Assembly (NCBI GenBank): GCA_946497955.1
Contig: CAMMMH010000006.1
Span: 1 to 57,527 of the forward strand
DNA: 57,527 nt
Source of the DNA: an uncultured Mycoplasmatota bacterium
GTDB taxonomy: Bacteria; Bacillota_I; Bacilli_A; RF39; UBA660
Direction: 5' to 3'
Shown: piece after piece, positions 9,270 to 55,184 of the stretch
Numbering within the stretch: position 1 is the first letter of the stretch
Layout: each line of letters begins with the position of its first letter
Notes under the pieces: generated by a model
Told to the model about the DNA's origin: nothing
Databases searched by the model: none
The model's input: the letters and a program-made list of their open reading frames with translations, nothing else
Translations under genes and position numbers: made by a program

Positions 9270-9929
9270 CTATATCTTTTCTACTAATTCACATATAATT
9301 ACTATTTGTTTATTAGTATTATGTCTGCACGTTATTAGTGTTAAAGTACTTTTTTGGGCATTTCTTGTTATCTCAACACTTCCAGTTTTTTCTACATCAT
9401 AAGTATTTATCATTCTGTACTTATACTCATATCCATTGTAGAAAATACTAACCGTGTCATCTATTTGTAATTTATCAAGATTTTTAAAAAATGCTGTTCT
9501 TCCATTTCCACTATGTGCAGCTAAAATAACATTTCCATTTTCTTGATCAGGCATATCTGATTCATCTAGTATTTTAATGTTTCGATTTACATTATTATAG
9601 TAACTATCTTTAGCAACTAATCCTTTTTCTAGTCCTATACTAGGTATTTTTAAAACTGCAATATAATCTAGGGAATTTGTACTTTTTGCTTGTTCAGTTG
9701 TATTATCTGTTTCTTCTGTTTCAGTTGGTATTTCATTATCAATTTTTTCTTGTTCTTCATAAAATTCTACCAAAGCAATATCTTCTAAATTATCTGCTCT
9801 TACATCAAGGAATATTTTAATTCCAATTACACTAATACCAATTAAGATAAGCAAAGAGCCAACTATTAAAAGTTGACTCTTTTTGCCTTTCTTATTGTTG
9901 TTTTTTTCTTTTTTTAACATAAACAACAA
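9270..9929 (-). CDS. Sortase
   Basis: N-terminal TM, catalytic-type AAHSGN and TLTLITC...R motifs; start overlaps the adhesin gene. Confidence 0.85.
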   Translation of the reverse strand: MLFMLKKEKNNNKKGKKSQLLIVGSLLILIGISVIGIKIFLDVRADNLEDIALVEFYEEQEKIDNEIPTETEETDNTTEQAKSTNSLDYIAVLKIPSIGLEKGLVAKDSYYNNVNRNIKILDESDMPDQENGNVILAAHSGNGRTAFFKNLDKLQIDDTVSIFYNGYEYKYRMINTYDVEKTGSVEITRNAQKSTLTLITCRHNTNKQIVIICELVEKI

Positions 9930-35840: not shown

Positions 35841-35868
35841 TAAAGTTAACAAATTAATGCTAACTTTA
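35841..35868 (-). terminator. Hairpin between SEC-C gene and metK
   Basis: TAAAGTTA-N12-TAACTTTA perfect 8-bp inverted repeat overlapping the SEC-C stop codon. Confidence 0.45.
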
Positions 35869-37839
35869 CTTACCACAACATTTTTTATATTTTTTTCCAC
35901 TCCCACATGGACAAGGATCATTTCTACCTACTTTTTTCTCTTTAGGCATAGAATTAACTTCTTTTTTAGTATAACCATTAAAAGCCCATATAGGTATATC
36001 ATTCTTATATTTATTTATAATATTATTTATATTCTTATAGTCTGTATTACTAGCTTTAATCTTATAATCTTCAAAAATAGGAATTAAAATATCAGGTACA
36101 TAACAATTCATATTTATTAAGGTAATAATATACATACCAATCTCTCTTGCATCATCTTCATTTTTACATAGTTTATTTATATAACTACGTAATTCGCTCT
36201 CTAAAGTATTCAAAAAATCAAGTTCATAATAACTATCAAAATCAACCTCTTTATACTTTTTAAAGTTTTTCTTACTAGGCAATAAAAATTTGTCTATTAC
36301 TTCATCAGTTTCATCTAGAACACAATAATAATTGTCTATACTATACATATCTAAAGTTTTAATAACTGTATCTAATTCATCAATCGTATACTCTAAATCA
36401 TGATTTTCTTGAAGTAATCTTTGTAATATCTTTTTTTCAATAATACCATTATAAAGCATATATAGATTTAGTATTTCTCTATCATCCAAACCATTAAAGC
36501 CATAATCATCACTTAAATCAAAATTATTAATTATCTCTTTAATTTCATCAGGAATTATTACCCTAACTTCTTCTTTATCTTTATATATATAAGCATATCC
36601 ATTTATAATAAAGCTTGTTATAGTATCATTTCCATTATAAGGTTCATTATCTAAAGATAAAATATCTTGTATTTCCTCATATTCATCAAAATAATTTATT
36701 CCTTCTTCTTTAAAATCATCAATTATAGCATCTTCTATTTCATATGTATCATCTAAATAATATGAATCTAATAACTGTGCTAATCCCTCATTTGATAATT
36801 TATTTAAACATTCTTTTAAAGTTGTTTTCTTAGGCTTTTCTTGAAGCATTAAATTTTCTATTTTACCTTCATCTATAGTATTTCCACCATTTTCCCAAAA
36901 TCTTATATTATCATATTCTTCATCAATTATTTCTTCTAACTTCTTTTTGTCCTTTTTACTTAAATTAAATTCATCACTAAAGTCTTTTAAAATTTCCAAA
37001 GAATCCCTTTCTTTTAATAATAATTTAGATATTATTACATTCATTGCTTCTTTACGAGGAATATCTATAATATTAACAATAGTTTCTACTAATAGCATAA
37101 TTCTCATCATATATGAAACATAATCTTGAATTTTTCTTTTAATGTATCTTCTATTTTCTAAATTAATAGCATATTCATCTTTATAAGGTATATCTTTAAG
37201 CCATAAATACTTTTTATTATTTATATCTTTAATAAGAATAGCATCTTTTATTTCCTTAAGTAACTCTTCTTTTGTAAATAAATTATCAAAATTACCATAA
37301 TAATCAAAAATAAAATCTTCATCTACAAGACCCATACTAAAAAACATTGAAAATAGTTTTGTAACTACTTCACTTTTTAAAGCAGTAGCTTTATCTTCTT
37401 TAGTAACTTTTTCTAAATATATTTTTTTAATATCATTAGGAAGCACATAAATAACTTCTTCTTTTTTATTTAAATAACCATAAACTATACCAGCATATAC
37501 AAACACTTGAGCGATAGCATCAATTTCCTTATTATTAGCTAAGTTTTCAATATTAACATATTGTTTATATGGCATACCACTCAAAATATCTAAAAAATTT
37601 TCTTTAATTTTTCTATCTAAAAGTTTTATTAACTCATTATCATGCTTATTATTTAATTCATCTCGTTCATAATAAGCCTTTGCTACAATATACAACTGTT
37701 CACTACTTAAAGCCTTTAAAAAATCTTTTAGATTTCCTTCAACTTTATTTTCTAAAAACAAACATTCTACAGGATACATTTCCATTAATTCGTCAATATT
37801 ATCAATTATATTATTACTTAATTCTTTTTCTTTTAACAT
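35866..37839 (-). CDS. SEC-C motif protein, 3 nt downstream of jetD
   Basis: 657 aa ending [21 protein letters not shown]; the rest is acidic, helical and unassigned. Confidence 0.85.
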
Positions 37840-37842
37840 AAA

Positions 37843-39072
37843 CTACTTCTCCTCTAATTTCATTTTAATAAATTTTTCTATAAATAACAAGTTATTTTCT
37901 TGATAACCACACTTTTTATTTTCAAATAGTAAACTCTTAACTTCTTGTAACTCTTTTGACTTAACAAGTTCTAATTTATGAAGTCTATTATTACCAACAC
38001 TAACACTAGGTTTAGTATTAAAGTAACTTTTCCCATCATAAAGAAATAATTTAATATTACTATATTTATTATTTAGTTTATCTGCTATTAATAATCCTTC
38101 AGGATCATAATCTCCATTATAATAAAGAGTTGTATCACTAGTAATATTTTCTAATAATTTATAGAAAGCAAGATTAGGAATACCAGATGTTATTATAATA
38201 GAAATATCTAAATCCTTATTCTTAAAATAATTTAAAATAGAAGGATTTTCAAAGATAAATATCTTATTACTCTTGCCAGTTATATTATTTAATTTAAAAA
38301 TATTATCAATATTTAAGTTCATAACATCAAAAGGCATTTCTTTATCATAAACTAGGTTATATGTAATAACATAATTACTAAGCGAATCTATATAGACATT
38401 TATCTTTTCTAATAGTTTAGTCTTATCTAAATTAGTATTAGGTATATCACATTCTAAAATATTACTTAATATTCTATAGAAAAGATTACTACTCTTAGCA
38501 TTATAATCTAAATAATGAGGATTAGAGGTTATTGAAGCATAAATTGGTAAATAAGTTATCTTATCTGGAATATTACTTAATAGTTTATCTATCATAAGTA
38601 ATTCTTCTTTTAAAGCTTTTTTATTTTGTTTATATTTACTTTTTATATTACGCATAGTACTAAAGTTTTTATTTATATTTCTTTCAAAAAAATCTTTAAG
38701 TTTCTCACTCGTAAGTTCTAAAAGTAAATCTTCTATAAATGAAACAAACTCTTCATGAAATTTTCTCTTCTTTAAGGTATTAGTAAGATAAGAAAAATCA
38801 TCATAGGTATTATAGAAGTAATCAGTAAACTCAAAGTCTTGAAATTTGCTTTTATCAAGTACTTTATTAAATTCACTTATCTTTATTTTATAAGTCTTAC
38901 CTTCTTCAAATTTTCTAGCAAAGAAATCTGTTAGACTAACTGCTTCTTCATAAGTTATATTATCAAGAGTAATAATCCCTGTTACCCTACCATAACTTTG
39001 ATACTTCTCTTTAGCTTTTACCATAAACCTTTCAAAACCTTTATTATTCTTAAAATAATCTAAATAATCCAT
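37843..39072 (-). CDS. jetD: Wadjet JetD-like (DUF2399/TOPRIM-like) nuclease subunit
   Basis: FENPSILNYF...ITSGIPNLAFYKLLENITSDTTLYYNGDYDPEGLLIADKL; position directly after the SMC gene. Confidence 0.82.
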   Translation of the reverse strand: MDYLDYFKNNKGFERFMVKAKEKYQSYGRVTGIITLDNITYEEAVSLTDFFARKFEEGKTYKIKISEFNKVLDKSKFQDFEFTDYFYNTYDDFSYLTNTLKKRKFHEEFVSFIEDLLLELTSEKLKDFFERNINKNFSTMRNIKSKYKQNKKALKEELLMIDKLLSNIPDKITYLPIYASITSNPHYLDYNAKSSNLFYRILSNILECDIPNTNLDKTKLLEKINVYIDSLSNYVITYNLVYDKEMPFDVMNLNIDNIFKLNNITGKSNKIFIFENPSILNYFKNKDLDISIIITSGIPNLAFYKLLENITSDTTLYYNGDYDPEGLLIADKLNNKYSNIKLFLYDGKSYFNTKPSVSVGNNRLHKLELVKSKELQEVKSLLFENKKCGYQENNLLFIEKFIKMKLEEK

Positions 39073-42000
39073 CTATTCCACACTTTCTCTAACTAATCCA
39101 TTCCAACGATATCTTTTAATACTTACAGTATCTGCTGCCTGAGGCTTAATAAGTTCACATATTGAAATATCTTTTATTTCTTTATAATCACACCATAATG
39201 CTTGACTTGTTAAGATATAATCTAAATCAAAACTTGCAAGGATTGCAAACATTTCTTCAATATTAACTTCATCTACACCTGCAAAGGCTTCATCTAAAGC
39301 GATTAATCTAGGAGATGAAGGTGCTGCACTATCTAATTTAGCATAGATACTTGCAAATAATGGAACATACATAGTCTTAGCTTTCTCTCCTCCACTAAAG
39401 ACAGAAAATATCTTATCAGTTAATTCTCGTTTTTGATTACCATCTTTTTTATAAAAGAGTTTAAAAGTAAACCAATTACGATAATCTAAAATATTAAAAA
39501 TCATTTGGAAGTACGTTATATTATTAGTAAGCATAGACTCTTCTTCTCTTTTTATCTTAGATCTAAAATGCTTAATTAATCTATTAGTATCTTCAGGCTT
39601 TATAAAATTACTTGGCATCATAAATATCTCTACTAAATCTTTAGTATCCATTTCTTCTAGTGTCTCTCCACTTTTAGGTTTCCAATCCAAGTAAAAAGAT
39701 AAATTACTATTTTGTTGTTTTATTTCCATAATATTATTAATCTTTTTAACCCAATCTCTTGCTTCTATTATTTTCTCTTTAATCTTAGTCCCAATAGTTC
39801 TAAGTAAAATATCTTCAAACAAATGTCTATCTTGTTCATTAAGATAAATCTTATCTGCCTCATAACTTTCTAATAAAGCATTAGAAAGTTCATAGATATT
39901 TAACTTCTTACCTTGATAACTAGTTAAAACATCTTGTCTTTTCGCATCGTTATATATGTTAATAACTCTTGTTCTATCAGATACTTTATCACTATAATAA
40001 TTAATTAAATTATCTCTTTCATTAAATAAAACTACATCTTGAATATTATACTCTAATAATTCCTGACGATATTCATTAAAAGAACGGTAATAGTTCATAG
40101 TAACATCTTTCAAATCTTTAGTTTTAGCATCATTATTTCTTAAAAAGTTCTTAATAGTTTTAAAGTCTACTTCTAAATCTTTAACAACATAACCTAAATC
40201 TAGTTCTTCTTTTAAAATATTAGATAGTATTTCTAAAAAAATCTCTTCTTCTTTTTTCTGTTCTTCTAAAGACTTAAGTTGTTCTTCTTCTCCTTTAAAG
40301 CTCTGTTCTAAAACACCTAATCTCTTTGATAAATTAGCACTCTTAAAAGGATAATCTTCAATAGTCTTTACAATTTTCTCTATTTTTTTACTAAGTTCAA
40401 GATACTCTTTAGTATTAAGAATCTTTAAAATAGTATTAAGTTCTATTTCTCGTTTTTTCTTATCATTAACTAAACTAGATATAGTAGCATACACTTCATC
40501 ATGATTAGTAGTTAAATCATCTAATCTTTCTTTATTAGTCATTAATAATTCCTTTTTCTGATTTAATTTATCATAAAGAGCATTTAACTCTTTAGTAGTA
40601 TCTAAAATATCTCTAATTACAACACTAGCTTTCTCATAAGTTACAAGGTTAAGAGGAATATTACTTCGATATTGCTCTAATTCTTTAATAACTTCTTCAA
40701 TTTGTTGTTGATACTTTCTAATTTCCTCTTCAAGTTCCTTTTCTTTATTATTAATAAAATCAAGTTCTAAATCTGTTTCTTTAATCTTAGCTGTAATTTC
40801 TTCTAATATTCTATTACTAGGAAATAATTTACTTTCATTATTTAAAGTATTTATAGAAGTATCTAATGTATCTAATTCAAGTTCTTTTTTTCTAATAACT
40901 TCTTTAATAGCATCAATCTTCTCTTCCTCTTCTTTTATAAGTAATTGATGTTCTTCTTTTCTTTTTAAAACTCCTATATATTTACTATTATAATCACCTT
41001 TAATATTACCTTTAATAAAGTCAAAGTTATAATTATTTTCATTAATACTAATAACATCACTATCACTAGTACTAATAGATTCTAATATTGAAGTAATAAA
41101 CTCATTACTAAAAACTTCATTAGGATATGCTTTTAAATATTTAGTCAAGTTATCTTTCTTTTTACTACTTTTCTTAAAGTAAGAAATATTCATATTTTCT
41201 ATCTTTCTTAAGTCTTCATCTCTAAATATCTTAGTATTTAAAATCCCTGATGAATATAGCACTTCTTCTAATTTATTTTTAGTATCATCATCTATTCCTT
41301 CTTTAAATTCTACTACTTGATAAAGTGCAGCATAAGGAATATTTTCTTTATCTAAATAATCTATTGTCTTTCTAGTTAAATCATCTTCTTCTAGTTTTAT
41401 CTCTTCCATTTCTAATAATTCTTTTAATAATAACTCTTCTTTACTTAACTTATCTTTCTCAGTTAAAAGTTCAGTTTTCTTAAAAGATACTTCTTCTAGT
41501 AATTTACTATACTTAATCTTATATATTTCTTCATACTTCTCTTTAGATTTTAAATAACCTTCACTACTATATTCATCTAAATAACTAGCAATTTCCTTCA
41601 TATCATCACTTAATAAAATAAGAAATTTATTATTAGTTCTAATATTATTTAATGAAATAAAGAATAGTTCAAGTTCATTATCTAGTTCTTGATAAAAACC
41701 ATCTCTTATCTTTTCTTTTTCTAAATAATCTGTTTTTAATTTTTCATATTCATTAGACTTAATATTTTGACTCTCTAAAAGATTTCCTTTTCTTATAAGT
41801 AGTTCTTTAGTCTTTTCTATTTCCTCTTTCTTAAAATTTATCTTTTCAATAATATAACTAACTTGAGTTTTCTCTTTTATAAAAGGAATTAAATCTTTTA
41901 ATTCATCAAAACTAATCTCATCTCCTAAATCACTTAAGTTAGTGATTAAATTAGTTATTTCTTTATCAAGGTTAGTAATATCATCTTCATTATCGTTTAT

Positions 42001-43125
42001 TAAAGAAGTTATCTCACTCATCTTCTGTTTCAAATTATCAATTACTTCTTCTTCTTTAACAAGTCTTTCTTTAAGTATCTCCAACTCATTATCAAGTTCT
42101 ACTTTTCTTTTACTTTTTTCTTCTAAATCAGTATTGTTTAAATGTTCTTTCTCCTCTTTAGCAGTATTAAATTCATCTAATAGTACTACCTCTTCTTCTT
42201 TTAGTCTAGTAATCTCTTCTTCTAAACTAGTAATAGCATTAGTTTTCTCAGTAATTTTAACCTTTATATTTTCAAGAGCTTGGTACTCTTTATAATAATT
42301 AGTCGCTTTAGCAAGTAATACTGCTTCGTTATAATTTTTAAAGACTTTAGTAAAGTTAGAAAGAATATCAATGTTATTTTTTAACTCATTAATCTTTTCT
42401 TTAGTAGCATTTAAATTTTCAATAGTATCAGATAAAGGTCTTAAAGTCTCATCTGATAAAGGTGGTAAAACTTCATTTAATACTTCCATTAATTTAGTAG
42501 GCTTATACTCTTTAGATAATTTTGGACTCCTAATTTGTAAGATAATATTGATAAATTCATCAAAAGTTTCTATATTTCTAAATTTAAATAGATTATCATT
42601 AACTAACTTTTTATATTCTTTAGCAGTTTCTACTAAATTATTAGAAATACCTAAAGCACTTCTTAACTCTAATTTTGTTAAAGGCGTCTTAGTAAAACCA
42701 TCTTTTGTCTTATATAAGAAGAAATCTTTTCCTACTCTTCTACCATCTTTTAAGATAAAACCAAAGAAGTCAGTAGGCTTACCCCTTCTCGCTCTAAGTC
42801 CCATACCAATAGTAATATATCTATCTTCTAAACCATTATAAAACTCCATATATAAATAACCAGTAGAATCATCTTTTTCATTATTTTCTCCAAGTAAATA
42901 ATATTCTATATGTTTGTCAGTAGAACCAAAAGTATCTAATCTTTTAGGAGATTTATTACCATCTAATATTAAGGGAATAAATGATTGCATAGTAACAGAC
43001 TTTCCTGATCCATTTTGTCCTCTAAGTAAAAGTTTACCATCATAAAAATTAAATACTTCATCATCATATAACCAAAAGTTTATAAGTCCCATTCTTGTAG
43101 GTTTAAACATCTTCTTCACCTCCAA
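39073..43125 (-). CDS. jetC: Wadjet JetC-like SMC/MukB-type ATPase (TIGR02680-like)
   Basis: MGLINFWLYDDEVFNFYDGKLLLRGQNGSGKSVTMQSFIPLILDGNKSPKRLDTFGS; long coiled coils; VFSGGEKAKTMYVPLFASIYAKL; RLIALDEAFAGVD. Confidence 0.9.
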   Translation of the reverse strand: MEVKKMFKPTRMGLINFWLYDDEVFNFYDGKLLLRGQNGSGKSVTMQSFIPLILDGNKSPKRLDTFGSTDKHIEYYLLGENNEKDDSTGYLYMEFYNGLEDRYITIGMGLRARRGKPTDFFGFILKDGRRVGKDFFLYKTKDGFTKTPLTKLELRSALGISNNLVETAKEYKKLVNDNLFKFRNIETFDEFINIILQIRSPKLSKEYKPTKLMEVLNEVLPPLSDETLRPLSDTIENLNATKEKINELKNNIDILSNFTKVFKNYNEAVLLAKATNYYKEYQALENIKVKITEKTNAITSLEEEITRLKEEEVVLLDEFNTAKEEKEHLNNTDLEEKSKRKVELDNELEILKERLVKEEEVIDNLKQKMSEITSLINDNEDDITNLDKEITNLITNLSDLGDEISFDELKDLIPFIKEKTQVSYIIEKINFKKEEIEKTKELLIRKGNLLESQNIKSNEYEKLKTDYLEKEKIRDGFYQELDNELELFFISLNNIRTNNKFLILLSDDMKEIASYLDEYSSEGYLKSKEKYEEIYKIKYSKLLEEVSFKKTELLTEKDKLSKEELLLKELLEMEEIKLEEDDLTRKTIDYLDKENIPYAALYQVVEFKEGIDDDTKNKLEEVLYSSGILNTKIFRDEDLRKIENMNISYFKKSSKKKDNLTKYLKAYPNEVFSNEFITSILESISTSDSDVISINENNYNFDFIKGNIKGDYNSKYIGVLKRKEEHQLLIKEEEEKIDAIKEVIRKKELELDTLDTSINTLNNESKLFPSNRILEEITAKIKETDLELDFINNKEKELEEEIRKYQQQIEEVIKELEQYRSNIPLNLVTYEKASVVIRDILDTTKELNALYDKLNQKKELLMTNKERLDDLTTNHDEVYATISSLVNDKKKREIELNTILKILNTKEYLELSKKIEKIVKTIEDYPFKSANLSKRLGVLEQSFKGEEEQLKSLEEQKKEEEIFLEILSNILKEELDLGYVVKDLEVDFKTIKNFLRNNDAKTKDLKDVTMNYYRSFNEYRQELLEYNIQDVVLFNERDNLINYYSDKVSDRTRVINIYNDAKRQDVLTSYQGKKLNIYELSNALLESYEADKIYLNEQDRHLFEDILLRTIGTKIKEKIIEARDWVKKINNIMEIKQQNSNLSFYLDWKPKSGETLEEMDTKDLVEIFMMPSNFIKPEDTNRLIKHFRSKIKREEESMLTNNITYFQMIFNILDYRNWFTFKLFYKKDGNQKRELTDKIFSVFSGGEKAKTMYVPLFASIYAKLDSAAPSSPRLIALDEAFAGVDEVNIEEMFAILASFDLDYILTSQALWCDYKEIKDISICELIKPQAADTVSIKRYRWNGLVRESVE

Positions 43126-44293
43126 ATAAATCCATCTGTTTTGTATTATCTTTTATAAGTTTAGCATTAAACCTAGCGATAGTTGGTAATACTAAATAAG
43201 TATTATCCTCTTCTTTTAAGAAAGAATACTCTATCATATAATTTACTACTTCATCAAAGAATTTCTGTAAAGATAAATTAATATACTGTTTACTTAAGTA
43301 TTCTTTATTATTAGTCTTAATGTCTTTAATAATCATCTCTAAACTTTCTTTTTTTATTCGTCCTATCTCTTTATCATCAAGAGATATTTCTTTATTTTTA
43401 ATCATTTCATAAAGTTTAGTATTTATCATTAAAACTATATCTGTAATTTTCTTATTATTAGGAAAATTATCTTTAGAATTACTTGTTTCATATTCATAAA
43501 GAAAAGCCATATTCTTTGTAACTTCAATTTCGAAGTTCAAATTAGAAAACTCATTTTCTAAATAACCACGCATCTTCTTAATATAATCAATTTCTGCTTC
43601 TGTTAAGTTATAAGAAAAAACAGCAGGAGTAAATAAAAGATTACGATAAACTTTATATCTTCTAACATCACCTTTTTCTAAAGTTTGATATTTCCATTCA
43701 TCATTTAAGAAATCATTAGTATCTTCTATTTCAAAAATATCGTTTGTAAATAATCGCATTACATAGTTAGCAAGACCTGTTACTTCATATAAAGCTTCAG
43801 CATTTTGATCATCTTTAAAGCTTATCTTTTCAGCATCTTTAACCTTTATTACTGATATTTCTGTTAAGAAATCTATTACTCTAACTAAACTTTGTCTATC
43901 ACTTCTTAAATTCCAATCTGGTATTGTCTCAAGATTTAAGGTAACCGCGGTATTTTTAACATAATCTATTAGTGATGATAAAACAAAGACTTCACCTCTA
44001 GTTTTATCTTCTAAAAATAATAGAATTATACACAAAATGACATAGTCTTGTTTTGAATTAAAGTTATCTATTCCTAGATTATCAACTCTACTACTAGGAA
44101 TCTTTTCAAGTTTAACAAATCTATCATGAATAATTAATTTACTACCAAGAGTCTTAGTAACAAAGTCTTTAATAATATTTTGTTTTCTTTTAACGTCATA
44201 GTATAAGTCAGGATTATCTTCTTTTAAAATCCAAAAGTTAGTTAAAAGTTCTCTTATTTCATTTTCAATTGATTCCATCATAACCCCCTTCAA
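43103..44293 (-). CDS. jetB: Wadjet JetB-like (DUF2398-like) protein
   Basis: 396 aa, operon position between JetA- and JetC-like genes with overlaps on both sides; MESIENEIRELLTNFWILKEDNPDLYYDVKRKQNIIKDFVTKTLG. Confidence 0.75.
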   Translation of the reverse strand: MKGVMMESIENEIRELLTNFWILKEDNPDLYYDVKRKQNIIKDFVTKTLGSKLIIHDRFVKLEKIPSSRVDNLGIDNFNSKQDYVILCIILLFLEDKTRGEVFVLSSLIDYVKNTAVTLNLETIPDWNLRSDRQSLVRVIDFLTEISVIKVKDAEKISFKDDQNAEALYEVTGLANYVMRLFTNDIFEIEDTNDFLNDEWKYQTLEKGDVRRYKVYRNLLFTPAVFSYNLTEAEIDYIKKMRGYLENEFSNLNFEIEVTKNMAFLYEYETSNSKDNFPNNKKITDIVLMINTKLYEMIKNKEISLDDKEIGRIKKESLEMIIKDIKTNNKEYLSKQYINLSLQKFFDEVVNYMIEYSFLKEEDNTYLVLPTIARFNAKLIKDNTKQMDLFGGEEDV

Positions 44294-45755
44294 AAATAAT
44301 ACTTAAACTAGGTAAAGTAAATATTCCATCATCACTAATAATTCTACAAGTAGTATTACTATCATTAAAATTAACTTTATAGTTAAGTCCAAATAAAGGT
44401 TCTTTAAAATAATTAGTACTATTTCCTGCTTTACTTATTAGATTTAAAAGATATCCTCTTTCTTCTTTAGTTAATCTAACTTCATCTTTTAACTCTACTA
44501 CTTTAGTTTGAACGAACTTCTTTAACATTTCTTTTTTTCTAGCTTCTTCCTTCTCATATAACTCTAATATTTCTTTTTTCTTACTAGTTTTATCTACTAT
44601 AGTACTATGACGTTTTTCTGCTCTAATTTTTTTATCATTAGGTAATACTGATATTATTGTTGGCTTTACTTCATAAGAATTAACTAAAGAGTCAGTATCT
44701 TTTTTACTAATACCTTTAAAGTGTTTAACTCTATAAATTCCAAAGACAGCATTAGATAAATCTCTTACTTCAGTTAGATTAGTTTTTTTATCAAAAAGTT
44801 TACAAATATACTTATACTCTTCTTTACGTTTTATCATATTACCATGAAGTTCTATGAGACTACTAGCACATTTAGTAATTCTACTGATAAGATTACTAGT
44901 AACTTCTAAAAGTCTATCACCTTCACTCTTTTCTTTAGTATTAACAAACCATTTATAAATACTTCTCCATTTACCCAAATTAACTTGATTAAATTTCTGA
45001 TAATTAAAGTCTAAAGCTATTTTAGGAATACCTCTTTCTGCTTCTTCTAATCTTTTAATAAGATTATCTTGAAAGTTATTATCCATACTCTTTAAAATTT
45101 CTCTTATAACTTCAGCTTGATTTAAGTACCCTGTTATAAAATCTTTTAAGTACTGAATCATTTTATTTTTATATTCTAGAAAGACTGTACTTTGTAAAAG
45201 TTCTTCAGTTTTTGACTCTTGAAACTTCTTTAAAAAGTCTTGATAGTTTCTATTAATATCACTAAATTCATTAGTAATTCTCTCCCAAGTATCAAGTAAT
45301 TCTTCGTTAGATAGAGAATCTAATTTTTTTATCTTTTTTAATAAGTCTCTTAATACTTCAAATCTTTTAGGAGATAAAGATGCAACCTTTACTTCCATTT
45401 CTTCAAGTTCAATAGTCATACGTTCTATAGCGATAGCATAATCTGTTAATTGATATCTATATTTTTTATATTTAAAGTCGGCAAGCGAGTTAATATTATT
45501 AACATCTTGAACAGTAGTTAAACTTAAATTATCTACTAAAAACTCTAAATCTCGTTCTAAATCTTCCATAGTATAGTTATCTATTTTATCCTTTAATTCA
45601 TCATAGATATCTTCTTTAAAAAGCCAATTCTCTGCTTCTTCATATTTATGATAGAAAAAACGCATAATAGGTCTATAACGATAAGTATTTTCTTGTGATA
45701 AATATTTAGTCTCCGTAATAGCTTTTTGTAGTACTTCAAAATTATCCATAAACAC
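44265..45755 (-). CDS. jetA: Wadjet JetA-like (DUF2397-like, kleisin-type) protein
   Basis: 496 aa; KYLSQENTYRYRPIMRFFYHKYEEAENWLFKEDIYDEL; first gene of the operon. Confidence 0.75.
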   Translation of the reverse strand: MFMDNFEVLQKAITETKYLSQENTYRYRPIMRFFYHKYEEAENWLFKEDIYDELKDKIDNYTMEDLERDLEFLVDNLSLTTVQDVNNINSLADFKYKKYRYQLTDYAIAIERMTIELEEMEVKVASLSPKRFEVLRDLLKKIKKLDSLSNEELLDTWERITNEFSDINRNYQDFLKKFQESKTEELLQSTVFLEYKNKMIQYLKDFITGYLNQAEVIREILKSMDNNFQDNLIKRLEEAERGIPKIALDFNYQKFNQVNLGKWRSIYKWFVNTKEKSEGDRLLEVTSNLISRITKCASSLIELHGNMIKRKEEYKYICKLFDKKTNLTEVRDLSNAVFGIYRVKHFKGISKKDTDSLVNSYEVKPTIISVLPNDKKIRAEKRHSTIVDKTSKKKEILELYEKEEARKKEMLKKFVQTKVVELKDEVRLTKEERGYLLNLISKAGNSTNYFKEPLFGLNYKVNFNDSNTTCRIISDDGIFTLPSLSIIFEGGYDGIN

Positions 45756-46050
45756 TCCTTTATGGCTATTATTCTATCATATGTTCTAGTTAATGTATAG
45801 TTATTTTTTTGCATTTTCCAAATGTTACCAAAAAAAAGAAAACTATTAGTATAGACTTCTCAAAGTAATTATTATAATACTTGTAATAATTCATATCTCG
45901 TAGCATGTTTATTACATAATTGAACACTTAAGTCTAAAATCAGCTCTTTATAAGATTACTGACTATTATTCATATCTTCCTTTTTTATAGCATTAAAAAT
46001 ATTATTATACATTTTTTCTATTCTTTATTATTATATTTACTGATATTGTC

Positions 46051-46080
46051 AAAAAAATTACTCTAGAAAGTAATTTTTTT
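46051..46080. terminator. Bidirectional intrinsic terminator between GmrSD-like gene and jetA
   Basis: AAAAAAATTACT-CTAGAA-AGTAATTTTTTT, perfect 12-bp inverted repeat with A/T tracts. Confidence 0.75.
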
Positions 46081-46199
46081 GGTTTTTTCTTAATTTATTA
46101 CTGTAGTACCTTCTTATATATTTTAAAGTTTATTATTTTTAATTAAAACAGTTTCTATTAAGACGTCTAAAGTATTACTCGCATCGTTATTATTAATTA

Positions 46200-48038
46200 T
46201 TATAATTCAAACTCTTTCATAAAAAAATCTACTAATCTATTTGTTCTTTCCTTTATGTCTTCGATATGCCAAGCATCTTTACTAACTACATCGTCATTCA
46301 ATTTTAATCCATTTTTATAACCAATATAATTACCATCTTTATTAACTCTATTCTTTTTCTTTTCGAAAGACAAATTACTTAAGTTTTGGTTATATCCAGT
46401 TATAGTTAAATTTCCTAAAATATGTACATAATTATTTAAATATTCAATTGCTAAATTTTTATCACCATTTGCAATCATATTAACCCACTCTACTGGAATA
46501 TTTTCTCCTTCAGGAAAAATATGCTCTATAGTCCAAATATATTTATTACTACTATCTCTACTCCACAAATTAGTATATATTTCATTTGTTTTAAATTTAT
46601 CTTCATAATAACATAGTAAAAATCTTGTAGCATCTGGATTATCTAAATATATTGATCCTTTTAATTTTGCTTCAAATATTTCATCAGATGATGAATTATC
46701 TTTTAAGTTATTGATAATCAAATCATATATTTCAGTACCTTGTTTATCCTTAATTAGTGCTACTAAATCCATAAATATCTTTGTTAGATTTCTTGTATTT
46801 GGATAATCTGTAATATTCCTTCTAACAAAAAACTTTGTTAAATAGTTAATAATATTTGCAATAATTTCATTATTTAAATTTAATTCTTCTTTTTTTGACA
46901 TCAAATATAAAAGTAAAATATATGCAGGTGCTCCTTGAATTTTATCTAAATTAAATAATGGCTGTGCTAATTCTTCAATAACATAATCTTCACTTGCGTT
47001 GTTAATTAGAATTGAATAATTTCTAGCTTCTTTTTCAACTCTATTTAAAAATTTTTCATAATCTGTCTTAATTAATTTTTCATAGATATCTAGTATTGTA
47101 CTTTTTGTAGCTAGATAACCTAATGCATATTTTACTTTTCCTTCTGCTTTATATGGTGCGTTTAATTCATCTCTATAAGCATTATAAAATTGTCTAAAGA
47201 ATCTTTCTTGTACGCTATAATCATCGCTTAAATAAGAAAGTATCTTTTTCCATTTAGAATAAGCATCATCTGATTTACCATCAGCATCTGATACACTAAT
47301 TAATAAATTTTTGATTAAATCAATAGCAGATAAAGGAACTCCTCTATTATTCAAGGATTCAAATAGCATATACGCATCTTTATGTGTTTCTACCTGAATA
47401 GATACTAAAATAGCAGAATTAAATTTGTTTACTAACTCAAATAAAATATCTATTTCATTTAAATTTGAATCTTCTTTTTGAATTTCTTCTATATATTTAT
47501 CAATTAAATTAGAAAAGTAATAATAGGCTCTATATATTCTTCTATTACCAGCATTATTCTTCTTTTCATAGTCCAAAAGTAAATCATTTTCACATAATAA
47601 ACTAAAATAGTCATCTCTATTATTATTTTGAACTTGTGGCTTTAATCTTGAAATGTTTTTACCATTTCTTTTAACAACTAATTCTCTTTTAATATTATTT
47701 AAATCTGTAAATCCATCTTCATCTAATTGACTTTTCTTTTTATTCAATTTATTGTATAAAGCTATTAATAGAATAGAAATAGATGTTAATCTTTGTTGTC
47801 CATCAATAACTTCTAATATAGCATCACTCCAAGCACTGACACTATCATCTACACAAATAATAGAACCTAAAAAATATCCTTTATCATTTTCAATTACATC
47901 ATTAAATAATAATCCCCATTCTTTTTGTCCCCATGTATATTCTCTTTGATATTTTGGTATGTTATATAGAATACTTTTTTCATTAGAAAATATTTGAGCT
48001 ATATTATTTGGCTCTGTATATTTAATCATTACACTCAC
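46200..48038 (-). CDS. GmrSD-type single-chain protein (DUF262 + DUF1524)
   Basis: YNIPKYQREYTWGQKEWGLLFNDV, FLGSIICV, EVIDGQQRLTSISILLIAL; C-terminal WTIEHIFPEGE...HILGNLTITGYNQNLSNLSFEKKKNR. Confidence 0.9.
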   Translation of the reverse strand: MSVMIKYTEPNNIAQIFSNEKSILYNIPKYQREYTWGQKEWGLLFNDVIENDKGYFLGSIICVDDSVSAWSDAILEVIDGQQRLTSISILLIALYNKLNKKKSQLDEDGFTDLNNIKRELVVKRNGKNISRLKPQVQNNNRDDYFSLLCENDLLLDYEKKNNAGNRRIYRAYYYFSNLIDKYIEEIQKEDSNLNEIDILFELVNKFNSAILVSIQVETHKDAYMLFESLNNRGVPLSAIDLIKNLLISVSDADGKSDDAYSKWKKILSYLSDDYSVQERFFRQFYNAYRDELNAPYKAEGKVKYALGYLATKSTILDIYEKLIKTDYEKFLNRVEKEARNYSILINNASEDYVIEELAQPLFNLDKIQGAPAYILLLYLMSKKEELNLNNEIIANIINYLTKFFVRRNITDYPNTRNLTKIFMDLVALIKDKQGTEIYDLIINNLKDNSSSDEIFEAKLKGSIYLDNPDATRFLLCYYEDKFKTNEIYTNLWSRDSSNKYIWTIEHIFPEGENIPVEWVNMIANGDKNLAIEYLNNYVHILGNLTITGYNQNLSNLSFEKKKNRVNKDGNYIGYKNGLKLNDDVVSKDAWHIEDIKERTNRLVDFFMKEFEL

Positions 48039-48194
48039 ACTCCTAAAGCTATTTTAGCATATATTTATAATAAAAAGAAATTATTATAATTTCATTTCTT
48101 TGGTTAAAAATAATTATTTTCAATTTTTAATATGTGAAACTATAAAGAATATCTGTTATTTATAAAAATCACAATTTACACAATGTATCATTAA

Positions 48195-51011
48195 TTATTC
48201 CTCACTCTTTTTGTTTTCAAGATTATATTTAGTTTCTTTGATTATTTTATCTTTATCTTTTTTATTTTTTTCATCTTGATATAGTATTTTAAATCTCACA
48301 ATTTCCTTATTAACAAATTCTTTAACTTTTTTATCTTTTGGTTTTAATTTTTTAAAAAAAGCGTATTTATCATGAAAAGAATTTGCAATACCATATTCTC
48401 CCTTAACAACTCCAGTATTAAATACTAGACATTCAATCTTGTTTAATAATTCATCATTAGAGGCAATCTTAGATATTATATATTCATATATTTCCCAACA
48501 AGATATTGATACGTCATATAATCTACATAAATCAATTACTTTTACGTAATTATCATAATTGTCATTTTCTTTTAAATACTTAAGTATATCGCTACATAAT
48601 TCATTGTTATATTCGCCAAGTAAATAATATATATAGTTAGATATTTTATAATAATTATTTTCAGTCAATAATTCTATACACAATTTTAAATTATTATATC
48701 TTTCTTCTTTATAATTATTACAAGTTGTTAGATTAACATATCTAAAAAAATTATATAAATTACTATTTGGATTATCTGTTATTTTTTCTTTAAGCAATAG
48801 CCTTAAATCTTCTGGATATTTTTCAAACAAATCATTTAAGAAAAACTCATCTAACCTATTAAATTCACTATACCTAAAATTTTCTAATAATATACAAACA
48901 TCAGCATAGTTATATTCTTCTATAATCATTTTCTCAGTATTAGGATTATATAATACTTCTCCAATAATTCCTTTAGTAATACTATTATACTTTTTTATTT
49001 TATTTAGTAAATAATTTTTATATTCTTTATTATTTACTAAATCAACATTATTAGAAATAAGCTTTAATATCTTAATTTCTAAATTCTCATTTTTATTATT
49101 TTCAACAAATTCTATTAAATTATTTATAATATTCAAATCTATATTACCTGTTTGTAGCATAGCTTGAATAATTTTATCAGCTTTTATGTCATTATCAATT
49201 ATATATTCATAATTTTTATCTTGTCTAATTACCCCAAGTAAGATAAATTCATTCCATTTAGTCTTTATTATTAATTTTCCATAATTTTCTAGTGTTCCAA
49301 TGCCAATTAAAAATCTTCCTGCATTAAAAAAATTCGAATTACTAATTTTTTCATTATCCAATATATCCAATATAGCTATAATCTCTTTAACATTACTCTT
49401 TTTAAAATTTTTGGTATATTCATTTAAATAATTAGTTCTAAATTCTTCATTTTCAGAATCATCAGCACATGGTATTTCATTAATAAAAAAATTGAATAAC
49501 ATTGCATATAAATTCTGAATTTTATCATTTTTTAGTTTTTTATAAAATTTGCTATCTTTTAATTTTGTATTTTTCCAAGCACATACAGATTTATATAGTT
49601 CGTTTTTACTATACACATCAATTTCATCATAATTATTATTGAAAAAATCATATATTGGATTATAGTCAAATATGTTTGTGTTTCTCTCCAACTCACAATT
49701 TATGTTAATTAAAGCATTTAAAGCTTCCTTCGAATGTTGATTAAAAAATATATCTAATATCACTTCTATTGCCTTATATATTTTATTTTTATAATTTTCA
49801 CTAGGGCTTACTTTATTATTTACAAAAGATATCTTATCCATGCCGACTTCTTCACAATAATTATAATTTATATTACAAAAATATTCAGCCAACTTTATTC
49901 TTACATATACATCTAAATCTTTTTCAAAAATTAATAAATAAGCAATTTCGTGAATATTATAATCAGCATAGCCTCTGTTAGAATCAGCTTTATCAGAAAC
50001 TATTAGATTCTCTATAAATTTATCAAACTTTTCTAACATATTATTATTAGTTGATATTTTATATAAAGTAGAAATTATTCTTTTAAAATCACTAAGCCAT
50101 AAATATTTATAGCTTTGTAAAAATTCTAACATTTTACTAAATTTATATTCATATGTATCATAATTCAAGAATTTAGCTGTTTCAATAGGTAATTCACTAA
50201 ATTTTTTTACTATTGAATAAATTATACCTGAATCATAAATTTCTTTGTACTTTTCTTCGTATTCATTAATTAAGGGAATAACTTCTATCATTTTATTAAT
50301 TATTTCTTCCAGCTCATTTAAAGATTTAACATTCTGCAACTTTTTACCGAAATCATCTCCTAATAATATCGCTATATTTTCTGCCCCCTTTTTAATGCTA
50401 GATACACGTTTATTAATAAACTCTAGGCTTGCCATTATCTTCAAAGTTTCTTTTCTTACATCTTCAAAAGTAGACTTAATTCTATTATATTCTTTGCTAT
50501 CCTTTGATTGTAATTCATCTACATCCTTATAAATTATATTATGCCCAAATTCATTCATGGCATGAGCCAACAATGTTGTTAATTGTATTTCACATAATAA
50601 ACCTTTAAACTTATTAAAATCATTTTTTAACGAAATTGTTATGTTAATTCCATCATATTCCATAATATCTTTTGATGGTCTATATGATTCAACATTAAAT
50701 TCATCGTAGATAATATTGTTAAATTTTTTTAATTCATCTTCATCATAAAAAATAATTCTTACGCCACTAAGGTCGTTTAGTTTTTTTATATTTTTGCAAA
50801 TGCCATTTATAATTTTCTCTGTTAACTTGTTTTCCAACGAATCATAAGATTTAACTCGACTATTTAAGGACTGATATTTTATACCATTTTCAATAAGAAT
50901 ATTTTTTACCTTATTCTCAATATAAGATGTAAATTCAACATAGATTAACTGAGATGATAAATATTCTTTTAACATTTGTTCTTTTACTTGTTTAAGTTTT
51001 TCAGATGTCAT
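48195..51011 (-). CDS. RelA/SpoT-like synthetase-domain protein with long helical C-terminal region
   Basis: SLNSRVKSYDSLENKLTEK, LNDLSGVRIIFYDEDEL, CEIQLTTLLAHAMNEFGHNIIYK; ~650 aa C-terminal region without recognised motif. Confidence 0.75.
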   Translation of the reverse strand: MTSEKLKQVKEQMLKEYLSSQLIYVEFTSYIENKVKNILIENGIKYQSLNSRVKSYDSLENKLTEKIINGICKNIKKLNDLSGVRIIFYDEDELKKFNNIIYDEFNVESYRPSKDIMEYDGINITISLKNDFNKFKGLLCEIQLTTLLAHAMNEFGHNIIYKDVDELQSKDSKEYNRIKSTFEDVRKETLKIMASLEFINKRVSSIKKGAENIAILLGDDFGKKLQNVKSLNELEEIINKMIEVIPLINEYEEKYKEIYDSGIIYSIVKKFSELPIETAKFLNYDTYEYKFSKMLEFLQSYKYLWLSDFKRIISTLYKISTNNNMLEKFDKFIENLIVSDKADSNRGYADYNIHEIAYLLIFEKDLDVYVRIKLAEYFCNINYNYCEEVGMDKISFVNNKVSPSENYKNKIYKAIEVILDIFFNQHSKEALNALININCELERNTNIFDYNPIYDFFNNNYDEIDVYSKNELYKSVCAWKNTKLKDSKFYKKLKNDKIQNLYAMLFNFFINEIPCADDSENEEFRTNYLNEYTKNFKKSNVKEIIAILDILDNEKISNSNFFNAGRFLIGIGTLENYGKLIIKTKWNEFILLGVIRQDKNYEYIIDNDIKADKIIQAMLQTGNIDLNIINNLIEFVENNKNENLEIKILKLISNNVDLVNNKEYKNYLLNKIKKYNSITKGIIGEVLYNPNTEKMIIEEYNYADVCILLENFRYSEFNRLDEFFLNDLFEKYPEDLRLLLKEKITDNPNSNLYNFFRYVNLTTCNNYKEERYNNLKLCIELLTENNYYKISNYIYYLLGEYNNELCSDILKYLKENDNYDNYVKVIDLCRLYDVSISCWEIYEYIISKIASNDELLNKIECLVFNTGVVKGEYGIANSFHDKYAFFKKLKPKDKKVKEFVNKEIVRFKILYQDEKNKKDKDKIIKETKYNLENKKSEE

Positions 51012-51242
51012 TTAGAATCCTCCTTATAAAAGAAAAATTTAATATACCTAATGAAAAAGTTGTTTATTACTATGACTGCAAATATAGGAAATTATAACAC
51101 TTTAGAAATATATAGACAAGCAAGTATCATAGTGATTTAATATCAAAAAGTATTAAAACTTATGTAATATTCAAACTGAAGTAATAAGGTAATTACAACT
51201 TGACTAAAAAAATCTAATATAAAAATAAAGTGAATATTTAAT

Positions 51243-52331
51243 TTACTTCTTTCTTTGTGCATAAAATCTTACACTCGGATATTCTTTTTTCATTTTTACA
51301 ATATCATAGTATGTATACACATAAAATTTTGGAAATTTTTCTTTTACTTCAGTAACCATGTACAATACATATGAGTCTTTATATTTTTCCATAAACTTTA
51401 TCTCTCCACTAGACATATTAAAGATTGGCTTAGTTTCAGATGTTGACTTTACTTCTACATATTTCTTTTCTCCATCTACAATATATTCCATATCATATGG
51501 AGATTGTGGAAAGTCTAAGCTAGTATGATATAACTCATTATCATCATCTAACTTTTCCCTTAATAATTTATATATAAACTCTTCTCCTAGCCTTCCATTT
51601 TCTAATCTAGATTTATTGATTAATTCATAAGTTATAGTTGTAGATTCTTGAATATCTGGATTTTGTCCAACCACTACAACATAGTCATTATCTACCACTT
51701 TATTAGGATCTATAATTAATTTTTTTCCTACACCTTTTTTCCTTCTAAAGACAGTTGATAGAGGTATTCCATTTGGTCCTATTAAAGAGGTTATAAAGTT
51801 TAAAGTCTTAGTATCTTGGTAATACTCAAACCCTCTAACTACAAATGCAAATCCTCCATTTTGTTCCATAATTGAATTTAAAACAGCCTTATTGTCAATA
51901 TTATAACCATCTGCTTTAAAACTAAAAGTTATTGGATAATGAAGTTTTATTCTTCCTAAATGTGTATTATTAACTTTACTTCCATTTAACTTAGTTATAA
52001 CATGATCTGTTTCTCTTTTAAAATACATAGCAAATTGAAATTTAGTATTTAATTTTATTCCATCCAATAAGAAATTACTAAATATAAACACATTATCAAT
52101 ACTATTTCCAGAATGTGAAGAACTTTGACATTTATGAATTAGCATGGCCGGTGGATTAATAACATTACAATTATATTTTTTTAATTCTAATATATCTTTT
52201 CTCCATTTATTTTCATCTTTGCTTTGATTTAGTGGTGTTGAGACTGTCGCAGTTTGACCTTTTGCATAATCATTATATGTTCCTAAAAATAAAGATTTTT
52301 CATCAATTTTAAATCTAATTTTATTTTTCAT
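51243..52331 (-). CDS. DUF3883-like / PD-(D/E)XK-like protein, probable restriction partner of the methyltransferase
   Basis: NGRLGEEFIYKLLREKL...SPYDMEYIVDGEKKYVEVKSTSETKP; 11-nt overlap with the methyltransferase gene. Confidence 0.75.
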   Translation of the reverse strand: MKNKIRFKIDEKSLFLGTYNDYAKGQTATVSTPLNQSKDENKWRKDILELKKYNCNVINPPAMLIHKCQSSSHSGNSIDNVFIFSNFLLDGIKLNTKFQFAMYFKRETDHVITKLNGSKVNNTHLGRIKLHYPITFSFKADGYNIDNKAVLNSIMEQNGGFAFVVRGFEYYQDTKTLNFITSLIGPNGIPLSTVFRRKKGVGKKLIIDPNKVVDNDYVVVVGQNPDIQESTTITYELINKSRLENGRLGEEFIYKLLREKLDDDNELYHTSLDFPQSPYDMEYIVDGEKKYVEVKSTSETKPIFNMSSGEIKFMEKYKDSYVLYMVTEVKEKFPKFYVYTYYDIVKMKKEYPSVRFYAQRKK

Positions 52332-53427
52332 TACTACCTCCTGTATTTAAATTCAACCAATCTTCGTCAAAATCCTTAAGTTGCTTAAATATAAATTCTA
52401 ATAATATTGTAACTAAATTAACATCCCAACCATTACCAGCTCTTTTAGATAATTGCGTATATGATTGATTTCCAAATACAATATCAACTTTTCTCCCTTT
52501 GATATTTAAGCCTTCAAGCCCCATCAATCTAAATTGCTCAGTAACTGACATTTTTCTTACAACCTCTTTATTTCTATTAGGTTCTATAACTCTTAAGCTA
52601 TTATGTTCAGGCATAGTTATTGTAATAGAATATCCGTCTGTTTTGATTTTTTTATTATATACATCAAAACACAAAGCTTTTTTTACTTTAAAACTATCAA
52701 TTTTATGTTTTTCTTTTAAGTGCTCTATTTGCTTATCCGACAAATACATCTCTTTTGGAACGTATTCTTTAGGATCTAAAAAATCTGCCATTAATAATCC
52801 TGTTATATTTTTAGGGGGTTCCATCGAAAAGTTTTTTGGTAAACCTCCAAGCTTTGCAAACATCCAAACCCTTTCGCGATTTTGAGGAATACCATAATCT
52901 TTACTATTTAATAAAGCAACCCTTAATGGAGATTCATCTTTATCATTTTTATCTGCAACATACCCCATCTCTCTTAGCATATCTTCCATTTGTTTTCTAG
53001 TTGTCTGAAACTTTTTTGAAAAAAATCCTTTAACATTTTCAAGCAATATATATCTTGGCTTTTTTGCATCACATATTCTCATAATATGTTGAAATAAAGT
53101 TCCTCTTCCATAAGGATCATCTATGCCTTTTTGCATTCCTGCAGTTGAAAAAGGCTGACATGGAAAACCACCCATAAAAATATCAAAATCAGGAACATCA
53201 TCAGGATTTAGTTTAGTAATATCTCCAAAATTTTTAATATTTTTCCCATTTTTATCTTTATGATTTAAATTGTATAGCTCACACGCATATTTATCAATTT
53301 CAGAATATCCAATTACTTCAAATAAAAAATCAGGATATTTTTCTTTTAATCTGTCTAAAGCAAAATGTCCACCGCCATATCCTGCAAAGCCTTCAAAAAC
53401 CCTTAATACTTTTTTGTTTTTGTTCAC
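52321..53427 (-). CDS. DNA (cytosine-5-)-methyltransferase
   Basis: RVFEGFAGYGGGHFAL, FMGGFPCQPFSTAGMQKG, ILLENVKGF, GIPQNRERVWMFA, QFRLMGLEGLN...RAGNGWDVNLV. ORF track starts at 53463, but GTG at 53427 after TTAGGAGG is the likelier start. Confidence 0.93.
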   Translation of the reverse strand: MNKNKKVLRVFEGFAGYGGGHFALDRLKEKYPDFLFEVIGYSEIDKYACELYNLNHKDKNGKNIKNFGDITKLNPDDVPDFDIFMGGFPCQPFSTAGMQKGIDDPYGRGTLFQHIMRICDAKKPRYILLENVKGFFSKKFQTTRKQMEDMLREMGYVADKNDKDESPLRVALLNSKDYGIPQNRERVWMFAKLGGLPKNFSMEPPKNITGLLMADFLDPKEYVPKEMYLSDKQIEHLKEKHKIDSFKVKKALCFDVYNKKIKTDGYSITITMPEHNSLRVIEPNRNKEVVRKMSVTEQFRLMGLEGLNIKGRKVDIVFGNQSYTQLSKRAGNGWDVNLVTILLEFIFKQLKDFDEDWLNLNTGGSNEK

Positions 53428-53504
53428 AATGTTGCCTCCTAACTTTGGTAACTTAATAATCATATTTTTTATTATATGTTTATTAGAATACCTCTTACAT
53501 TTAT

Positions 53505-53533
53505 ATTATAGCATGTATATTTTAAGATGTAAA
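53505..53533 (-). promoter_or_regulatory. Sigma-A-type promoter for the methyltransferase operon
   Basis: Minus strand TTTACA-17 nt-TATAAT with extended -10 (TGCTATAAT). Confidence 0.6.
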
Positions 53534-53632
53534 TCAATGAAAAAACATAGTTTTCATTTTATACCAAAATTTACATGGCTAAAACTTAATTATATCAAAC
53601 TCATTATATAATTAGTAAAAAATTATTTAGTA

Positions 53633-54013
53633 TTATTCAAAATGACTATTTCTGCACAATTTATCTACATCACTGACATCTGGAATAGGGGGTAATTTTT
53701 CAATGCCATATGGATAAAGTTTTCTAATCTCTTTAACATTTTGCAAAAATTTATTACTAGACCATAAATTAATAAAATCTTTATCACTCAACATTGAAAC
53801 TGCTGTTTTGCCATCATATATAATGCCATTATATATATTCATCTTTAGTTTACTATTTTTACAATGCAAATGAGGAAAAGATGGATTAATATCAGAATCG
53901 CCTTTTTTAAAGTACCAGTTCCTTTTGCTTAATTTAAATGGTATTGGGCCAAAGAAAAGTGGCTCACTAAAAAACGAGAGCAATTGCCAAAGTATTAGTT
54001 TTAAAATGTACAT
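53633..54013 (-). CDS. Small hypothetical protein with FPHLH motif
   Basis: 126 aa; SDINPSFPHLHCKNSKLKMNIYNGIIYDGK; start uncertain. Confidence 0.5.
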   Translation of the reverse strand: MYILKLILWQLLSFFSEPLFFGPIPFKLSKRNWYFKKGDSDINPSFPHLHCKNSKLKMNIYNGIIYDGKTAVSMLSDKDFINLWSSNKFLQNVKEIRKLYPYGIEKLPPIPDVSDVDKLCRNSHFE

Positions 54014-54087
54014 ATATTCAAATCACTACTTTCAAAATTATATTATTATATTTTTTATGAACATATTTTCAGAATCAAAAAACACTA

Positions 54088-54924
54088 CTAAAATAACTCT
54101 TTCACAATTAAATCTTCAGAATGTAAATTATTATTTTTTCCTAATAATAAATTCTCATAAAACTTAATTAAATAACCTTTATCTTCTTTAATGCCTAAAT
54201 CATTATTAAAATAATTACTTCTAACTAATGCATTTCTAAAATATACTGATTTATCTTTAAATAAAGTATTATCTACGTTATAACCTAAATTAATTAAATA
54301 CTTTTCTATAAATAAAGCTGTAGTTCTAGTATTACCTTCTCTAAAAGGATGTACTTGCCATATACTAGAAGAAAAATCAGTAATATTTTTAATCACGTCT
54401 ACAATAGACATATCTTTATAGTTTTTATCTTTTTCTAAACTTATGTCATATTCTAAAGATTCTTTTAAAGTCTTATAATCTCCATAAGCTACAGAATCAT
54501 TATTTAATATTTTTTCATGTTTAGAAAAATTAATATCTCTAAACTCTCCTGCAAATTCATAAACATCTTGAAATAAATATTTATGAATATACTTTAAATA
54601 ATCTACTGATAACTCAAAATTATCTTTTTCTAATAACTCAACTATTCTCATAGATACAAAGTCACATTCTAATTCATTATGATTAATATTATTTTGTTTT
54701 GATTTTTCTACATAATACTCTTTTAGACTTTTCTCTACTTCTTCTATTGATAATTCTCCTAAAACATTCTTTTCTTTAATCTGTTCTAGATATTTAGATG
54801 GTTTTAAATTATCTACCTCTTGTAAACCAATAGCCATATCCCACTCTAATTGTTTAACATAGCCTTTAGGATTATCTATCTCATTATATTGATTTATACT
54901 AGAATCAAAATCTCTTTCACTCAC
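54088..54924 (-). CDS. Fic family protein
   Basis: HPFREGNTRTTALFIEKYL core motif; IHKYLFQDVYEFAGEFRDINFSK upstream. Confidence 0.93.
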   Translation of the reverse strand: MSERDFDSSINQYNEIDNPKGYVKQLEWDMAIGLQEVDNLKPSKYLEQIKEKNVLGELSIEEVEKSLKEYYVEKSKQNNINHNELECDFVSMRIVELLEKDNFELSVDYLKYIHKYLFQDVYEFAGEFRDINFSKHEKILNNDSVAYGDYKTLKESLEYDISLEKDKNYKDMSIVDVIKNITDFSSSIWQVHPFREGNTRTTALFIEKYLINLGYNVDNTLFKDKSVYFRNALVRSNYFNNDLGIKEDKGYLIKFYENLLLGKNNNLHSEDLIVKELF

Positions 54925-55107: not shown

Positions 55108-55184
55108 TGGGGCGGTATAAGGGAATCGAACCCTTGCATACTGGTGCCACAAACCAGCGTGTTAACCACTTCACCAATACCGCC
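55108..55184 (-). tRNA. tRNA-His(GTG)
   Basis: GGCGGTATTGGTGAAGTGGTTAACACGCTGGTTTGTGGCACCAGTATGCAAGGGTTCGATTCCCTTATACCGCCCCA: cloverleaf with 8-bp acceptor (G-1:C73), GTG anticodon, encoded CCA. Confidence 0.93.

Follow-up and report, generated by a model that had tools for sequence, protein, structure and literature searches.

What could a protein that joins a RelA/SpoT-like domain to a very large helical C-terminus be doing amid restriction genes? The question is raised by a 57,527-nucleotide stretch of DNA from an uncultured Mycoplasmatota bacterium (contig CAMMMH010000006.1, hereafter the window), where an open reading frame on the minus strand (48195–51011) starts with ATG, runs uninterrupted by stops and encodes a protein of 938 amino acids that we call P0001. 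An earlier note on this DNA had reported RelA/SpoT-synthetase-like motifs at its N-terminus and proposed a phage sensor-effector. The gene is as it described, with all three quoted motifs present, and Pfam recognises a RelA_SpoT pyrophosphotransferase domain at residues 51–163 (50523–50861; features of this gene are all on the minus strand), with a score of 44.1 bits where the gathering cut-off is 27 (E 2.9e-11), while a translated search of the genome recovers the domain at the same locus (4.6e-13). The Pfam scan of P0001 gave nothing credible beyond RelA_SpoT and found no HD, TGS or ACT domain, as the earlier note had observed. From the evidence below, we propose with moderate confidence that P0001 is a one-protein, autoinhibited sensor-effector of abortive anti-phage defence. 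Such a self-contained RelA-HEAT alarm is most likely undescribed, and no paper on a RelA-HEAT architecture was found in the open-access literature and a few preprints.

Is the enzyme domain active, and on what? Among 47 family members, comprising P0001 and its relatives, residues R52, K54, D80, R85, E141, Q143 and H157 are identical throughout, position 62 is Lys or Arg in all, and S58 is found in 42; P0001 itself retains R52, K54, S58, K62, D80, R85, E141 and H157, the equivalent of R91 in RelP not being retained. The ATP-donor pair R52 and K54 (50850–50858) corresponds to R78 and K80 of Staphylococcus aureus RelP (SaRelP), and the D80-x-x-G-x-R85 motif (50757–50774), present in all 47 members, contains the equivalents of D107, a Mg ligand, and R112, which stacks on the adenine (PMC5794853). 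Indeed, the ATP and Mg ligands of SaRelP (PMC5794853) and of FaRel2 (PMC11782079) match family-invariant residues. On the acceptor side, the motifs Y-x-S-L-H and E-I-Q-x-R-T are replaced in P0001 by YDGIN and EIQLTT: the G-loop YDGINI (residues 119–124, 50640–50657) keeps the Tyr and has an Asn instead of the His at 123, and EIQLTT (residues 141–146, 50574–50591) keeps the catalytic Glu and has a Thr instead of the Arg at 145. Judging from the alignment, this changed acceptor side is a family-wide trait, with Tyr or Phe at 119 (32 and 15 members), His or Asn at 123 (25 and 22) and Gln, Thr or His at 145 (41, 5 and 1), whereas the EIQxRT Arg is present in all 25 other small alarmone synthetase (SAS) domains in which the motif was scored. 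In FaRel2, the Y128F substitution impairs the enzyme through disturbed acceptor accommodation (PMC11782079). The claim of an altered catalytic site therefore holds for the acceptor side, but Y119 and, apart from the R91 equivalent, the donor site are retained.

Since the acceptor-side residues have diverged while the donor and catalytic ones are retained, the acceptor may differ from GTP, and the domain would be a live pyrophosphotransferase. A degenerate enzyme domain, with the solenoid working as a scaffold, could also account for the changed acceptor motifs; we consider this very improbable in view of donor and catalytic residues that are invariant across very distant members and of an enzyme domain that is the slowest-evolving part of the protein. 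A regulated (p)ppGpp synthetase deserves more attention: here the solenoid would sense a stress ligand or a scaffold protein, the product would be the ordinary alarmone, and the gene would encode a dispensable stress enzyme carried on mobile DNA. It draws support from RelP and RelQ being the nearest profile matches in the PDB and from the G-loop Tyr, retained in P0001 as in most members, and is nonetheless unlikely, because, in contrast to the SAS domains compared, none of the 47 members has the EIQxRT Arg and 22 lack the G-loop His, and because a long Rel and an SAS already exist in the genome. Besides P0001, this genome encodes a 721-amino-acid Rel, a 217-amino-acid SAS and a 358-amino-acid RelA_SpoT frame. 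A housekeeping Rel was rejected for P0001, which lacks HD, TGS and ACT domains in a genome with the 721-amino-acid Rel elsewhere and has no match in 34 congeneric genomes; the earlier view that it does not serve the housekeeping stringent response is thus borne out.

What follows the enzyme domain was examined with an AlphaFold model built from the 47-sequence alignment (mean predicted local distance difference test score, pLDDT, 79; predicted template modelling score, pTM, 0.54), which consists of a mixed alpha/beta synthetase fold and then of helices alone down to the C-terminus. In Foldseek, the N-terminal part matches RelP, RelQ and CapRel, with a template modelling score of 0.75 by target length for S. 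aureus RelP (6fgj) and with the CapRel structure 7ztb among the matches. By profile and by model, P0001 hence has a domain of the RelA/SpoT SYNTH superfamily with an SAS fold, the outcome that the earlier note had expected of a structure prediction, and a chance motif was rejected on the Pfam match, the fold and the clade described below. A phmmer search of P0001 against the PDB gave no match. A helical linker (residues 164–300, 50112–50522), delimited from the secondary structure of the model, leads to a HEAT/ARM-like alpha-solenoid (residues 301–938, 48198–50111), the proposed sensor and autoinhibitor, which in Foldseek matches importins, CAND1 and UNC-45; in the PDB it has no specific solved relative, the matches being generic HEAT/ARM proteins and designed repeats. 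A Nitrospira relative gave a better model (pLDDT 87) with a very similar layout. The remainder described earlier as HEAT-type helices of about 650 residues is indeed all-helical in both models, but the family solenoid spans about 640–770 residues and is reached through the linker that starts at about residue 164. Near its end, the family alignment reveals the signature TGVVKGEYG (residues 866–874, 48390–48416), in which G871 and G874 occur in 47 of 47 members. The sites resembling promoters that flank the gene are not more frequent than in shuffled sequence, so that transcription cannot be inferred from them.

How widespread is this architecture? A single scan of 84,980 species genomes, carried out with patterns from the enzyme domain and thus blind to other effector types, returned 59 loci, at most of which a member is encoded in full length (938 to about 1,300 residues), and provided about 46 full-length relatives of P0001 (938–1,310 residues). 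P0001 thus belongs to a broad family, a point absent from the earlier note, which is spread patchily over phyla and includes Bacilli, Alpha-, Beta- and Gammaproteobacteria, Nitrospira, a cyanobacterium and others; by its sequence it is a RelA-HEAT protein as the family is defined, with a SYNTH domain, a Gln or Thr at the EIQxRT Arg position and a TGVVxGExG solenoid. The enzyme-domain tree unites all 47 members in a single clade (100/99) that excludes 26 other SAS domains; inside this clade, the Bacilli sequences form a sister group on a long branch. Median identity within the family is 26–30% for the solenoid versus 48% for the enzyme domain, the faster evolution of the former being as expected of a sensor. 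Full-length orthologues with 69–80% identity occur in other Bacilli; one of them (72%), from another genus of the same taxonomic family, is encoded at a contig end, convergent with an integrase-like gene and overlapping it by 4 bases. No match to P0001 was found in 34 congeneric genomes, nor a full-length one in 99 relatives. Distant full-length relatives are carried by a conjugative Sphingobium plasmid, a Rhizobium plasmid and an IMG/VR contig.

A scan of viral contigs with the single protein P0001 gave no match, and a search of a phage collection returned one SAS match only, in a filamentous phage. A Vibrio filamentous phage genome (L011:5938–6945) and a Bacteroides phage-like plasmid (L007:6001–7071) encode SAS-type RelA_SpoT proteins of about 340–360 residues that match the PADLOC candidate PDC-S33 and are probably phage-borne defence or exclusion genes. 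As a further observation, the Rhizobiales members (L010:5683–9612, L090:9779–13648 and L097:9758–13618) reach about 1,290–1,310 residues; in the one on the Rhizobium plasmid, the additional C-terminal part is a poly-gamma-glutamate hydrolase domain, with which the corresponding parts of the other two align, an odd enzyme to be added to a RelA-HEAT protein.

In which company are these genes found? Two genes on each side of 41 members were surveyed, giving 150 predicted neighbours from crude gene calls, and these matched 84 PADLOC families at E<=1e-20, whereas 136 genes from control stretches in 17 of these genomes matched 4. The count is one of families whose models overlap, so that one gene can match many and the difference gives a direction rather than a calibrated enrichment. 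The matches include type I and type II methylases, Thoeris ThsB, an Argonaute-associated TIR protein, PifA and an endonuclease effector, and a gene similar to DSR2 lies near the Rhizobium member. The relatives are mobile and their surroundings are those of defence rather than housekeeping genes, in agreement with what the earlier note anticipated from a neighbourhood survey, and this defensive setting also speaks against a (p)ppGpp synthetase. As many members are borne by plasmids or sit next to integrases, the protein could alternatively be a fused toxin and antitoxin that maintains its element by addiction, with no specific phage trigger. We find this improbable: classical post-segregational killing is impossible because a fused inhibitor is synthesised, and disappears, along with its toxin, the solenoid of about 700 residues far exceeds the needs of an antitoxin, and the context is one of defence.

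Does the solenoid occur without the synthetase? With the IMG/VR member as query, two plasmid proteins were found that match its C-terminal part only, in Legionella adelaidensis (L104) and Pseudanabaena galeata (L105). In both cases the gene lies second in a pair, 2 bases from a first gene annotated as a PIN-domain protein, and the pairs constitute two-gene operons of a PIN nuclease and a solenoid (L104:6589–10007 and L105:6553–10001). A profile built from RelA-fused solenoids only matches these PIN partners end to end (1.9e-145 and 1.2e-141), one of which (P0009) carries the signature as TGVVTGEYG, and gave no match to 200 shuffles. The same profile matches the C-terminus of an Aulosira protein whose N-terminus is a Walker-A ATPase (3.9e-36; L107:4682–8299) and the C-terminus of a second cyanobacterial protein (1.3e-38; L138:1480–3678, minus strand), whose gene is followed by a caspase-like gene. 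The Aulosira N-terminus would be of STAND type, from its GPGGIGKT motif and layout, and a PDB search with it gave no match. The solenoid of P0001 matches a profile of 21 non-Bacilli members at 3e-12, chiefly over the last 130 residues that include TGVVKGEYG, and hhalign aligns it with the non-Bacilli solenoids over 509 columns at a probability of 95.5%. The diversity of a solenoid-only alignment was too high for a pattern scan; the solenoid profile was run on about 740 further genomes and there added a single RelA member and a single STAND-type protein. Two more weak matches in other genomes, in a helicase (L139) and in a PriA-like protein (L141), were judged to be chance, and no sensor shared with the DSR2-like SIR2 neighbour was seen, this protein not matching the profile.

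By these profile matches, the solenoid is modular, since it recurs with PIN and STAND-type partners, and this re-use independently supports the idea that the C-terminus is a sensor or autoinhibitor, autoinhibition itself being inferred. It also argues against a (p)ppGpp synthetase, since the nuclease found with the solenoid elsewhere does not produce an alarmone. It is conceivable, at somewhat less than an even prospect, that the solenoid is a general infection-sensing module used across effectors (RelA/SpoT-type fusion, PIN operon and STAND fusions, one of them beside a caspase), the RelA branch of which moved to a non-GTP, possibly new, acceptor.

How would a one-protein sensor-effector work? 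In the uninfected cell, the HEAT/ARM solenoid would keep the N-terminal enzyme inactive. Binding of an infection signal, probably a phage protein, to the solenoid would free the enzyme, which would take pyrophosphate from ATP and transfer it to an essential acceptor. For this acceptor, a tRNA 3' end or an adenine nucleotide is most likely, rather than GTP, and its modification would stop growth before the phage matures. The role in phage defence is what we infer for P0001, and with it the autoinhibition, the triggering by phage and the identity of the acceptor; such a mechanism is credible because of the precedent of CapRel (PMC9712102). Several points weigh against it. For the enzyme-domain profile, RelP/RelQ (E 6e-12) are closer matches than CapRel (0.03) and FaRel2 (0.23), which makes a guanosine product possible. 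PADLOC makes no call on P0001, PDC-S33 included. Some members adjoin genes other than defence genes (for efflux and DNA repair in the case of the Sphingobium plasmid), the neighbour counts are uncalibrated, and the long-branched Bacilli clade has a solenoid only weakly similar to the others. The sensor-effector interpretation as first proposed thus gains from the fold, the non-housekeeping character and the context, but has to accommodate an intact donor site and G-loop Tyr.

Known systems resemble parts of P0001. CapRel-SJ46 is a fused toxic SAS (toxSAS) and a phage-defence protein (PMC9712102), and shares with P0001 a plan in which a single polypeptide has an SAS-fold enzyme at its N-terminus and an inhibitor and sensor at its C-terminus (PMC9712102). 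The CapRel sensor is, however, a small pseudo-zinc-finger in a protein of about 373 residues, against an alpha-solenoid of about 640–770 in the P0001 family; this pseudo-zinc-finger is not found in the models of P0001 and its relative, which are all-helical in the C-terminal part, the YXXY motif itself not having been searched. P0001, as modelled, would therefore be CapRel-like in logic, yet no CapRel member, and equipped with an unrelated sensor. With the toxSAS FaRel2 and PhRel2 it shares the ATP-site R, K, S, K, D and R and the G-loop Tyr (PMC11559606, PMC11782079), but it has a solenoid and no separate antitoxin gene, and the profile match is weak, as given above. RelP and RelQ are the nearest solved structures by profile and by fold; they differ by their size (about 210–250 residues), by the absence of a solenoid and by a retained EIQxRT Arg. 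Among PADLOC candidates, PDC-S33 is matched by 42 of the 47 members (best E 1e-14), the matching stretch, where displayed, being in the SAS part, but its 349-position profile has no large solenoid. The Olokun OloA model matches three family members (best 5.5e-6) and, within the solenoid, P0009 (3e-7), a weak match apart from which PADLOC called neither gene of the PIN and solenoid pairs; a remote link of the solenoid to the defence protein OloA is thus possible, if weak and partial, although P0001 has no OloA match and no OloB was recognised among the partner genes scanned. DSR2, a SIR2 defence protein that depletes NAD, likewise has an N-terminal effector and a long helical sensor in one protein. 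This plan is similar to that of P0001, the effector being different and the DSR2-like protein found here unmatched by the solenoid profile.

Were our proposal true, immunity by fused alarmone synthetases would extend beyond the small CapRel type, and a second sensor, structurally unrelated to the first, would have been combined with this type of enzyme as well as with killers of very different kinds; effector swaps under a constant sensor could then reveal what the solenoid recognises, and it could be asked whether RelA-type enzymes have a further acceptor. As most members match only the candidate PDC-S33 and P0001 none, the architecture would be un- or half-recognised in defence surveys.

The surroundings of the gene in the window agree with the context described in the earlier note, a DUF3883 restriction-modification system on one side and a GmrSD-type protein on the other. 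On the minus strand throughout, P0001 sits between a GmrSD-type type IV restriction gene (46200–48038; Pfam GmrSD_N/GmrSD_C) and a pair formed by a DUF3883/NO VEIN-C (NOV_C) gene and a C-5 cytosine methylase (51243–53463), and the same island holds a Wadjet type II operon JetABCD (37843–45755; JetA–C by PADLOC and Pfam, JetD by Pfam DUF3323/DUF2399/JetD_C) and a Fic gene (PDC-S72; 54088–54924) that adjoins tRNA-His (55108–55183). The interval between metK and HSP20, which includes this tRNA, covers about 21 kb in the window, with the island at 37843–54924. In three congeneric genomes (comparison loci L162–L165) it is 8.3 kb long with other, methylase-like genes (G010), 14.3 kb with Fic and a JetD remnant (G015), and 29 kb with a Wadjet that is 99% identical and neither the RelA nor the GmrSD gene (G003). 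The tRNA-His/metK stretch is a defence hotspot whose cargo varies between congeners. Adjoining its Wadjet, G003 also carries three tandem paralogues (L165:7862–13839) of the SEC-C protein of the window (35866–37839). A RhuM-family gene lies at 16002–16994; genes of this family are often met on mobile DNA or in the company of defence genes. The opposite end of the window encodes a 2,457-amino-acid helicase/methylase fusion (1088–8461) and, at 9270–12663, a sortase together with a surface protein that has thioester/SpaA domains, which suggests a second mobile region.
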